From an uncultured Allobosea sp. (GTDB lineage Bacteria; Pseudomonadota; Alphaproteobacteria; Rhizobiales; Beijerinckiaceae): a stretch of 64,000 bases of DNA. The notes under the pieces are model-generated. The model worked only from the letters and a program-made list of their open reading frames with translations, had not been told where the DNA came from and did not search any database. The position numbers and the translations under genes are program-made. Positions 56,172-59,098 of the stretch are shown piece after piece. The first letter of the stretch is position 1. Each line of letters begins with the position of its first letter. The DNA lies in assembly GCF_945957345.1 (NCBI RefSeq), contig NZ_CAMFKW010000006.1, positions 99,101 through 163,100 of the forward strand, written 5' to 3'.

Positions 56172-57578
56172 ATGAAGCTGCCGCCGAAGCTCGGCTCCAT
56201 CCATTTCGTCGGCATCGGCGGCATCGGCATGTCCGGCATCGCCGAGGTCCTGCACAATCTCGGCTACAAAGTGCAGGGCTCGGACGCCTCCGACGGCGCC
56301 AACGTCAAGCGCCTCGCCGACAAGGGCATCACCACCTTCGTCGGCCACAAGGCCGAGAATATCGGCGAGGCCGAGGTCGTCGTGGTCTCGACGGCGATCA
56401 AGCGCGACAATCCCGAGCTGCTCGCCGCGCGCGAGAAGCGCCTGCCGGTGGTGCGCCGCGCCGAGATGCTGGCCGAGCTGATGCGCCTGAAGAGCTGCGT
56501 CGCCATCGCCGGCACCCATGGCAAGACGACCACGACCTCCCTGGTCGCGACGCTGCTGGAGAAGGGCGGGCTCGACCCGACCGTGATCAATGGCGGCATC
56601 ATCAACGCCTACGGCACCAATGCCCGCATGGGCGAGAGCGACTGGATGGTGGTCGAGGCCGACGAGTCGGACGGCACCTTCCTGAAGCTGCCGGCCGACG
56701 TCGCGATCGTCACCAATATCGACCCCGAGCATCTCGACCATTTCGGCACCTTCGACGCGATCAAGGCGGCATTCCGCTCCTTCGTCGAGAACCTGCCCTT
56801 CTACGGTTTCGCGGTGATGTGCATCGACCATCCGACGGTGCAGGGTCTCGTCGGCCAGATCACCGACCGCCGCGTCGTCACCTATGGCGAGAACCCGCAG
56901 GCCGATTTCCGTCTCATCGACATCGATCTTTCGGGCGGGCAGGCCCAATTCACGCTGCTGATCCGCGACCGCAAGACCGGCCGCGACGAGGTCATCCGCG
57001 ACCTCGTCATGCCGATGCCCGGCCATCACAACGCGCTCAATGCCACGGCTGCGATCGCGGTCGCCTATGACCTCGGCATCCCCGTGCCGCGCATTCGCGA
57101 GGCGCTGGCCGGCTTCGGCGGCGTGAAGCGCCGCTTCACCAAGACCGGCGAGTGGAACGGCGCGCTGATCTTCGACGATTACGGCCATCATCCGGTCGAG
57201 ATCGCTGCCGTGCTGAAGGCGGCCCGCGCCTCGACCAAGAACAAGGTGATCGCGATCGTCCAGCCGCATCGCTATACGCGCCTGTCGAGCCTGTTCGACG
57301 ATTTCGCCGCCTGCTTCAACGATGCCGATACGGTGATCGTGGCCGACACTTATGCGGCCGGCGAAGCGCCGATCGCCGGCGCCGATCGCGATTCGCTGGT
57401 CGCCGGGATCAAGGCGCGCGGCCATCGCCATGCGCTGCCGCTGGAAAGCTCCGACAAGCTCGCCGGGATGGTGGCGGAGCTGGCAGGACCCGGCGACTAT
57501 GTCGTCTGCCTCGGCGCCGGCAACATTACGCAGTGGGCCTACGCGTTGCCGGGGGAACTCGCGGCGCTCAAGGGGTAA
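56172..57578 (+). CDS. murC: UDP-MurNAc:L-alanine ligase
   Basis: First Mur ligase of the pathway, joining L-alanine to UDP-MurNAc. 468 residues: [21 protein letters not shown] at the N-terminus, ATP loop [15 protein letters not shown] (about 115), [26 protein letters not shown] and [18 protein letters not shown]. The catalytic lysine/histidine set looks complete. Downstream, 9 bp after the stop, begins the palindromic repeat that brackets the DUF559 gene. Confidence 0.97.
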
Positions 57579-57587
57579 GCCTTGAAT

Positions 57588-57714
57588 CCTTCTCCCCTTG
57601 GGGGAGAAGGTGGCCCGGCGTAGCCGGGTCGGATGAGGGAAGACCGGGTGAGGCGCTGCAAGGCTGCCCTCATCCGTCTGCTTCGCAGCCACCTTCTCCC
57701 CCGAGGGGAGAAGG
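57588..57714. repeat. Composite inverted repeat (C1) between murC and DUF559
   Basis: A 52-bp left unit (57588-57639) starting CCTTCTCCCCTTGGGGGAGA, a short spacer, and an inverted, diverged right unit ending GAGGGGAGAAGG at 57714. The left unit is an inverted copy of repeat C2 at 58105-58156, 49 of 52 bases identical. Its last bases (AGAAGGAAG) supply the apparent Shine-Dalgarno of the DUF559 gene. Confidence 0.9.
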
Positions 57715-57726
57715 AAGAGCCGCTTG

Positions 57727-58161
57727 ATGAAAGGCACAGCCCTGCATCGCAAGAACTCATCCCGCACACGCGACTTCGCCCGCGGTCAGCGGGAGGAGCC
57801 GACACGGGCTGAAGCTCTGTTCTGGCAAGCGGTTCGCAACCGCCGTTTCGCTGGCTTGAAATTCAAGCGCCAGATGGCGATTGGGCCTTTCATCGCCGAT
57901 TTCTGCTGCTTCGAGCATAAGCTCATCGTCGAACTCGACGGCGAACCGCATGCAACTCTGGAGGCACGCACCAGGGACGCCGTCCGCACGGCTTTCCTGA
58001 AACGGGAAGGCTATCGGGTCTTGCGCTTTCCCAATGAACGCGTGCTAGGAAACCTCGAATTCGTCCTGCGCGAGATCGCAAGTGTTCTCGGTCTCGTGGG
58101 GCTTCCCTCATCCGACCCGGCTTTGCCGGGCCACCTTCTCCCCCGAGGGGAGAAGGAGTAA
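57727..58161 (+). CDS. DUF559 protein, Vsr/restriction-endonuclease-like fold
   Basis: A 144-residue protein of the DUF559 family, which is related to very-short-patch-repair endonucleases. The likely active-site residues are all there: E29 (TRAEALFW), D58 (IADFCC), E69 and D71 (IVELDGEPH) and H75, with [20 protein letters not shown] at the end of the fold. The last 18 residues (from [18 protein letters not shown]) are encoded by repeat C2. ATG 57727 is preferred to the TTG three bases earlier. Function in the cell is not established. Confidence 0.85.
58105..58156. repeat. 52-bp repeat (C2) at the DUF559 3' end
   Basis: Begins CCCTCATCCG and ends GAGGGGAGAAGG; inverted relative to the left unit of C1 with three mismatches. 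It encodes the DUF559 C-terminal tail in frame and ends two codons before the stop. Its terminal AGAAGGAG lies about 13 bp before murB's ATG and may serve as that gene's ribosome-binding site. Confidence 0.9.
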
Positions 58162-58171
58162 GCGCCGAGCC

Positions 58172-59098
58172 ATGCCCTTCGCAGACCTCACTTCCGACAT
58201 CCGTGCCTCGGCTCCCGATCTGCGGGGCCGGCTCCTTGCCAATCAGGAGCTCGCGGGCCTGACCTGGTTCCGCGTCGGTGGCCCGGCGCAGATCCTGTTC
58301 ACACCGGCCGATGACGAGGACCTCGCCTATCTGCTCTCGAAGCTGCCGGAGGATGTCCCGGTCACGGTGATCGGGCTTGGCTCCAACCTGATCGTGCGCG
58401 ATGGCGGCATTCCCGGCGTCGTCATCAGGCTCGGCGGCAGGGCCTTCGGCGAGATCGCGCTGGAGAGCGGCGACCGGCTGCGCGCCGGCACGGCCGTGCC
58501 GGACGTCAAGGTCGCGCGAGCCGCGGCCGATGCCTCGCTCGACGGATTGGCCTTCTATCGCGGCATTCCCGGCTCGATCGGCGGCGCGTTGCGCATGAAT
58601 GCCGGCGCCCATGGCGGCGAGACCACGGATGTGCTGGTTTCCGCGCGCGGCGTCACTCGCAAGGGCGAGATCGTGACGCTCTCCCATGCCGAGATGGGTT
58701 TCACCTATCGCAACAGCGCGGCCTCGACCCGCGACATCATCTTCACCTCGGCGCTGTTCCAGGGCCGGCCGGGCGACCAGTCGGAAATCCAGGCCGAGAT
58801 GGACCGGGTGACGCAGGCGCGCGAGGCTGCCCAGCCAATCAAGGAACGCACCGGCGGCTCGACCTTCAAGAACCCCGAAGGCGGCAAGGCCTGGAAGCTG
58901 ATCGAAGCTGCCGGCTGCCGCGGCCTGCGCGTCGGCGGGGCGCAGGTCTCCGAGATGCACTGCAACTTCCTGATCAACACCGGCGGTGCGACGGCGGCCG
59001 ATGTCGAAGGGCTTGGCGAGGAAGTTCGCCGCCGGGTCAAGGAGAATTCCGGCTTCGAGCTCCAGTGGGAGATCAAGCGGCTCGGGGTTGCGGCGTAG
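58172..59098 (+). CDS. murB: UDP-N-acetylenolpyruvoylglucosamine reductase
   Basis: FAD enzyme that completes UDP-MurNAc synthesis by NADPH reduction. 308 residues with [54 protein letters not shown] and [28 protein letters not shown] (catalytic serine in GSTFKNP). ATG 58172 starts the protein; the track ORF extends back through the repeat. The 3' end overlaps the convergent transporter gene by 26 bp. Confidence 0.96.

Follow-up and report, generated by a model that had tools for sequence, protein, structure and literature searches.

Between murC and murB in an uncultured Allobosea sp. (below, the Bosea assembly), a DUF559 nuclease gene is enclosed by inverted repeats. The window, the whole 64,000-nucleotide stretch of DNA analysed, is part of contig NZ_CAMFKW010000006.1 (assembly GCF_945957345.1). 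REP-associated transposases (RAYT) lie between inverted palindromic repeats, and a preliminary description of the window proposed that DUF559 proteins could likewise move or maintain the repeat family found here. Do this nuclease and its repeats belong together, and if so, what kind of unit do they form?

Features of the locus are listed in Table 1. The 52-bp arms are near-identical, as described: the left outer unit and the reverse complement of the right outer unit agree in 49/52 bases, and the best agreement in 40 shuffles of the flanks was 32/52. One intact DUF559 open reading frame lies between them, with murC and murB as neighbours. Two copies of the repeat had been described at the locus; both outer arms are real, but the count is three, with an extra inverted unit next to the left arm. 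The left side (57588-57714) is therefore a complete two-unit element of the same form as gene-less copies elsewhere in the genome. The repeat had also been read as the source of ribosome-binding sites for the nuclease gene and murB, which is plausible for both because GGAGAAGG from the repeat stems lies 10-20 nt upstream of each ATG. The C-terminal residues of the nuclease are encoded in frame by the right unit. The same C-terminal tail is found on unrelated open reading frames at other loci (L309-L319), through in-frame translation of the repeat, and annotation pipelines may count such tails as protein similarity.

Table 1. Coordinates of genes and repeat units at the murC-murB junction, numbered from the first nucleotide of the window.
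Feature	Position	Strand	Basis or remark
murC, left neighbour (insertion context)	56172-57578	+	
Left outer repeat unit	57588-57639	+	49/52 match to inverted right unit
Hairpin CCTTCTCCCCTTGGGGGAGAAGG of left outer unit	57588-57610	+	Stem/tag covariation
Small second hairpin of left outer unit	57611-57630	+	
Third-strand tag GGATGAGGG of left outer unit	57631-57639	+	
Inverted second unit of left pair	57667-57714	-	Hairpin 57692-57714, tag 57667-57675
Probable ribosome-binding site of nuclease gene, GGGGAGAAGGA, from repeat 3' stem	57706-57716	+	Sequence reading
DUF559 nuclease gene, 144 aa, PD-(D/E)XK/Vsr-like	57727-58161	+	Pfam, conserved residues, model fold
Right outer repeat unit, inverted	58105-58156	-	Hairpin 58134-58156, tag 58105-58113; also codes nuclease C-terminal tail
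Probable ribosome-binding site of murB, GAGAAGGAG, from right unit	58148-58158	+	Sequence reading
murB, right neighbour (insertion context)	58172-59098	+	

The window protein matches Pfam DUF559 (PF04480) at 118.6 bits (1.4e-34; gathering cut-off 20.6), and the Pfam scan returned only this family and its weak relative MTES_1575. Residues E29, D58, E69, D71 and D84 of the Vsr-like PD-(D/E)XK core are invariant in alignments and H75 nearly so; all are present in the window protein. A genome-wide scan with this protein alone as query (the distant DUF559 alignment is too divergent) gave named relatives that identify the organism as a Bosea: an uncultured Bosea MAG (95%) and B. thiooxidans (89%). 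An AlphaFold model has a mean pLDDT of 79, with residues 127-144 below 50 and predicted to be disordered. Its best fold match is 3hrl, a DUF559 'Vsr-like endonuclease' (TM-score 0.90 on target), and with the Pfam match this makes the protein a member of the DUF559/YcjD family. The second-best solved structure is the Vsr-like homing endonuclease I-Bth0305I, and Vsr itself matches more weakly (1vsr, E=0.012), a resemblance of structure only. Homing endonucleases are nucleases that drive the spread of their own gene. The likeness to I-Bth0305I is one of fold, whereas homing endonucleases cut inside a host gene, at its empty allele, and lack bracketing dispersed repeats. No match to a defence system was found for the locus with PADLOC, and that reading was rejected. 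To our knowledge, no substrate or context was known for the DUF559 family before. DUF559 (YcjD) was earlier placed in the PD-(D/E)XK superfamily (PMC1189080). The Caulobacter member VsrA is needed for the DNA-damage response in cells without a cytosine methylase (PMC12907096), a phenotype consistent with nuclease activity in vivo; unlike the window nuclease, VsrA is linked to cytosine methylation and not to repeats.

Exact matches to the hairpin CCTTCTCCCC-N-GGGGAGAAGG number 17 in the Bosea assembly, which encodes exactly one DUF559 gene; the reversed control pattern had no match there. Apart from murC-murB, some ten sites have the repeat. Most dispersed copies are gene-less inverted pairs of units, 115-146 bp in length, laid out as hairpin, small second hairpin, tag GGATGAGGG and spacer, then the same inverted.

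The window unit has a polypyrimidine/polypurine hairpin and a third strand matching the reversed purine stem: the purine stem is GGGAGAAGG, and the tag GGATGAGGG is that stem reversed, with T for A at one position. In 55% of 545 palindromes near DUF559 genes, the tag is exactly what the palindrome's own stem would predict, compared with 13% (maximum 17%) for permuted stems. The best match within 45 nt was taken as the tag, and the permuted-stem control followed the identical procedure. Stem and tag classes shift together, as GGGAGAAGG/GGATGAGGG, GGGAGAGGG/GGGTGAGGG, GGGGGAAGG/GGATGGGGG and GGGGGAGAT/CAGAGGGGG. Judged from its sequence, the repeat unit combines a hairpin with a third strand whose bases covary with those of the stem, which is the plan of the intrastrand-triplex motifs BoxC, PIT and TM_ECO. 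The E. coli motif has the consensus CCCTCTCCC-loop-GGGAGAGGG-loop-GGGTGAGGG (BoxC, PIT, TM_ECO; Holder et al. 2015, PMC4666352). Actual triplex formation was demonstrated for it, TM_ECO has 23 copies in E. coli K-12, and paired motifs leave hairpin-like remnants (PMC4666352). DUF559 repeats share with BoxC/PIT/TM_ECO the polypyrimidine stem, purine stem and third purine strand, as well as inverted pairs, unstable loci and hairpin-like remnants. Alphaproteobacterial units differ in that a second hairpin often lies between stem and tag.

DUF559 genes were compared with other genes of the same loci for flanking repeats, as the preliminary description had suggested, and are strongly enriched beside them. 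In the same family, matching repeats flank 47/60 DUF559 genes and 5/224 other genes (odds ratio 158, Fisher p=7e-36). A gene was scored as flanked when a blastn match of at least 40 bits lay within 400 bp on both sides, and the 60 loci were taken with 6-kb flanks. In a phylum sample, flanked DUF559 genes numbered 15/21 in the same order (controls 2/68), 17/23 in other orders of the same class (0/68) and 12/24 in other classes (1/36). Among named genomes, 30/39 DUF559 genes were flanked, against 3/140 controls. Triplex-type hairpins lie near 207/246 DUF559 loci and 27/424 control genes, and on both sides of 96/246 and 2/424, respectively. Counting either matching pairs or triplex-type hairpins, 212/224 unique DUF559 genes are flanked; the other 12 (~5%) have no detectable repeat. 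ParE toxin genes, a small mobile comparison family, had matching flanking repeats in 0/29 cases. DUF559 genes and repeats could each simply favour the same intergenic niches, since the repeats are intergenic and often sit in junctions also used by unrelated CGTC-type repeats. The control-gene counts and the both-side hairpin counts above, together with the ParE result, leave chance or a shared niche with practically no probability, and it was rejected.

The association of DUF559 with the repeats spans at least three bacterial phyla. Flanked copies occur in N. gonorrhoeae (L324), the source species of the solved structure 3hrl, in Cyanobacteriota (L327, L331, L333 and L335, with triplex hairpins on both sides at L334) and in Deinococcota (L337, L338). 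A Streptomyces copy (L339) is without flanking repeats. On the cyanobacterial plasmids L327, L331 and L333, DUF559 is flanked by CCCCTAAATCCCC..GGGGACTT, an apparent hairpin with a purine tag that fell outside the triplex definition used. On plasmids of Synechocystis, Picosynechococcus and Pseudanabaena (L332-L335), DUF559 lies inside BREX/DUF499/DUF1156-type clusters, and at L335 the domain belongs to a very long open reading frame.

Repeat number also follows the nuclease across genomes, in raw genome counts that ignore phylogeny. A DUF559 match was found in 99/149 genomes of the same family. These have a median of 25 palindromes (pattern CCYTCTCCC-N2-10-GGGAGARGG), compared with 0 in the others (p=1e-14). 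In the phylum sample, at least 10 palindromes were counted in 51/71 DUF559 genomes and 8/178 genomes without DUF559 (odds ratio 54); outside the window's own order the counts were 29/45 and 5/166. Bosea genomes with more DUF559 genes also tend to have more complete units (Spearman 0.72). Some genomes have many repeats without DUF559, for example G120 and G132 in the genus and G312 and G199 from elsewhere. The simplest reading of these genomes is that their repeats are relics; another mover is possible. Repeat-rich genomes of this kind are what would be expected if DUF559 were cargo and the repeats were moved by another enzyme, such as a RAYT or other transposase in trans, or by host recombination; recombination or gene conversion between dispersed repeats could spread REP-bounded genes. 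Random cargo would not be one protein family in three phyla with odds ratios >70, other small mobile genes are unflanked (0/29), and repeat-rich genomes are nearly always DUF559 genomes. We regard DUF559 as mere cargo as unlikely.

The gene and its ends are co-mobile. Where similar DUF559 genes occur at different sites in one genome, alignment of the paralogues shows homology over the gene and both flanking units. In the pairs L122/L143 and L108/L114, homology ends at the base of the outer hairpins and the sequence beyond is unrelated; L064/L072 is alike, with similarity running slightly further on one side. The two units L122 and L143 lie ~6 kb apart and have inverted ends of ~100 bp starting TATCTCCCCCC, unusually long compared with the usual short units. 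Arms of paralogous units are 95-100% identical and the genes ~83-87%, which suggests that homogenisation or constraint of the repeats is continuing. This difference would also suit repeats that move independently of their cargo. Against that, nuclease/repeat pairs are matched beyond the genomic background. At 55-70% protein identity, the stem class was common to a DUF559 gene and its nearest protein relative in 110/175 cases, with 46 expected and a maximum of 74 in 1000 shuffles. Same-genome paralogues were available for 43 loci; in 33 of these the repeat was closer to that of the nearest foreign nuclease than to the repeats of the paralogues, and in 9 it was less close (Wilcoxon p=6e-5), so the repeat type goes with the nuclease and not with the genome. 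A role of DUF559 as mover or maintainer of the repeat family, as first proposed, is supported as the best inference: the repeat tracks the nuclease, and paralogous units end at the repeats.

Junctions between murC and murB were compared in relatives for the empty sites that the preliminary description had called for, and both empty and single-hairpin states were found. Neither outcome named there as refuting, a lack of enrichment beside the repeat or a gene present in all relatives with unrelated flanks, was observed. Among 30 Bosea genomes, 15 have DUF559 with repeats. In 5 the junction measures 40-52 bp and holds one hairpin, partly degenerate; 5 more are repeat-free, and the remaining 5 have a different palindrome that looks like the CGTC-tagged REPs of Alphaproteobacteria (PMC3733652). 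At C46, a dispersed gene-less site, a two-unit element is present in 4 genomes, exactly one 23-bp palindrome in 2, and the site is empty in 5. Purifying selection acts on the nuclease at murC-murB (66 pairs across Bosea, median dN/dS 0.14), although two relatives (G386, G402) have broken copies. Site states and purifying selection together argue that the murC-murB unit is functional, has long been resident and passed on vertically, and has repeatedly been lost. No recent jump at murC-murB was seen among the Bosea relatives, where the gene is vertically stable. Target-site duplications of 3-9 bp were no commoner than after shuffling in 128 inverted pairs. Insertion is thus not classical DDE cut-and-paste, and a DDE-type insertion sequence or MITE was rejected.

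Purifying selection and vertical inheritance at murC-murB would also suit a Vsr-like repair nuclease that resolves or polices triplex or hairpin DNA, with adjacent repeats that are autoregulatory and no transposition. The Vsr-like fold and the DNA-damage context in which Caulobacter VsrA works (PMC12907096) point the same way. Such a function leaves unexplained the duplicated units with homology ending at both outer repeats, the scattered positions, the frequent loss and the different repeat class of each same-genome paralogue, and we find it decidedly improbable.

The CGTC-tagged REPs share with the DUF559 repeat a palindromic, intergenic character and the bacterial class, and similar repeats occur at the same Bosea junctions. 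They were reported without a dedicated transposase (PMC3733652). They differ in sequence and are not the repeat that flanks DUF559, so identity of the two was rejected. At murC-murB in Bosea relatives (L185-L188, L191), unrelated CGTC-tagged palindromes (CGTCATGCTCGGGC...GCCCGAGAATGACG) are present. Other Bosea genomes have DUF559 units or gene-less pairs in the junctions that such palindromes occupy, as though the two kinds of repeat had a common preference for certain intergenic places.

In architecture and population behaviour, the DUF559 system is like RAYT/REPIN, with an unrelated enzyme. Both have an enzyme gene flanked by inverted palindromic repeats, here the DUF559 gene, and dispersed gene-less inverted pairs, here the 115-146 bp copies that are polymorphic among relatives. 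Both have a low-copy, vertically stable enzyme gene, repeats that outlast loss of the enzyme and a short tag beside the hairpin, and no target-site duplication was found for DUF559 units. The enzymes differ, as DUF559 has a PD-(D/E)XK Vsr fold and RAYTs are HUH/Y1 tyrosine transposases; no HUH (Y1) domain was found in the window protein by Pfam scan, and its fold matches are Vsr-type nucleases. The tags differ as well. REPs have a GTAG motif at the foot, which is absent here; the tag of DUF559 units, GGATGAGGG or a variant, instead matches the purine stem read in reverse and would pair with the stem as a third strand. DUF559 units, unlike RAYT/REPIN, include gene-carrying mobile copies. Membership in RAYT/TnpA_REP was rejected, as both the HUH domain and the GTAG tag are absent.

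Taken with the matched pairs and shared unit boundaries, we consider it probable that a DUF559 gene with inverted triplex-repeat ends is a minimal mobile unit, with the Vsr-fold nuclease as its cognate enzyme. Such a unit would span ~500-600 bp, the DUF559 gene plus inverted repeat units on either side. In the mechanism that we infer, which covers binding and cutting of the repeat by DUF559, the strand and site cut, the role of the third strand, the copying route and the driving of spread, the purine tag after the hairpin could return to the stem and act as its third strand, giving a BoxC-type end. The nuclease would most likely recognise its cognate folded end, probably while single-stranded at replication. 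Nicking at or near the hairpin would then allow the unit to be copied or excised. Replication or repair could in this way place a copy of the unit, or of a gene-less pair of ends acted on in trans, in another intergenic region. The dispersed two-unit copies without a gene (~115-146 bp) would be non-autonomous offspring, and solitary 23-bp hairpins the residue after loss.

Nothing found in the open-access literature connects either DUF559 or ycjD with triplex, REP or BoxC repeats. Both the repeats and the protein family had been described before. What seems new is their pairing, along with the mobile unit and the covariation of the third strand at DUF559 loci. BoxC/PIT/TM repeats are present in hundreds of genomes and are linked to instability, with an origin so far unexplained. 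If the pairing is true, two orphans explain each other: triplex repeats gain a candidate enzyme and DUF559 a candidate substrate. It would also mean that the RAYT/REPIN arrangement has been reached a second time, by an unrelated route. We know of no earlier nuclease partnered with a triplex-forming repeat; DUF559 would be the first. A wider claim is advanced with hesitation, and we lean marginally against it as a whole: that DUF559 elements, present in Pseudomonadota, Cyanobacteriota and Deinococcota, form a class of minimal mobile DNA that is both distinct and very widespread; that each has one Vsr-fold nuclease able to recognise DNA ends folded as triplexes and to copy both itself and gene-less pairs of such ends; and that they are the source of BoxC/PIT/TM_ECO repeats and of the reported instability.

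No mobile-element or enzyme link was found for the E. coli motif (PMC4666352), whereas here DUF559 is the likely partner enzyme of BoxC/intrastrand-triplex repeats, so far without an assigned enzyme. In E. coli K-12, the DUF559 gene ycjD (1351407-1351760) adjoins TM_ECO no. 9 (1351204-1351239) in the fabI-ycjD gap, and ycjD lies beside a TM_ECO repeat in another E. coli strain too. With one gene and 23 repeats, K-12 makes a direct test feasible. In several phylogroups, ycjD takes the place of eefRABCD at its site (PMC12817139). In the K-12 gap (L340, 2540-2960), a stretch like the ycjD 3' end, AATATTCTCCAGCACCGTCTCC, recurs ~105 bp from it (near positions 2838 and 2945). The 3' end of ycjD is itself overlapped by a degenerate hairpin, CCCTCGCTCTTTCAGGGAGAGGG. 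This arrangement looks like what is left of a second DUF559 unit.
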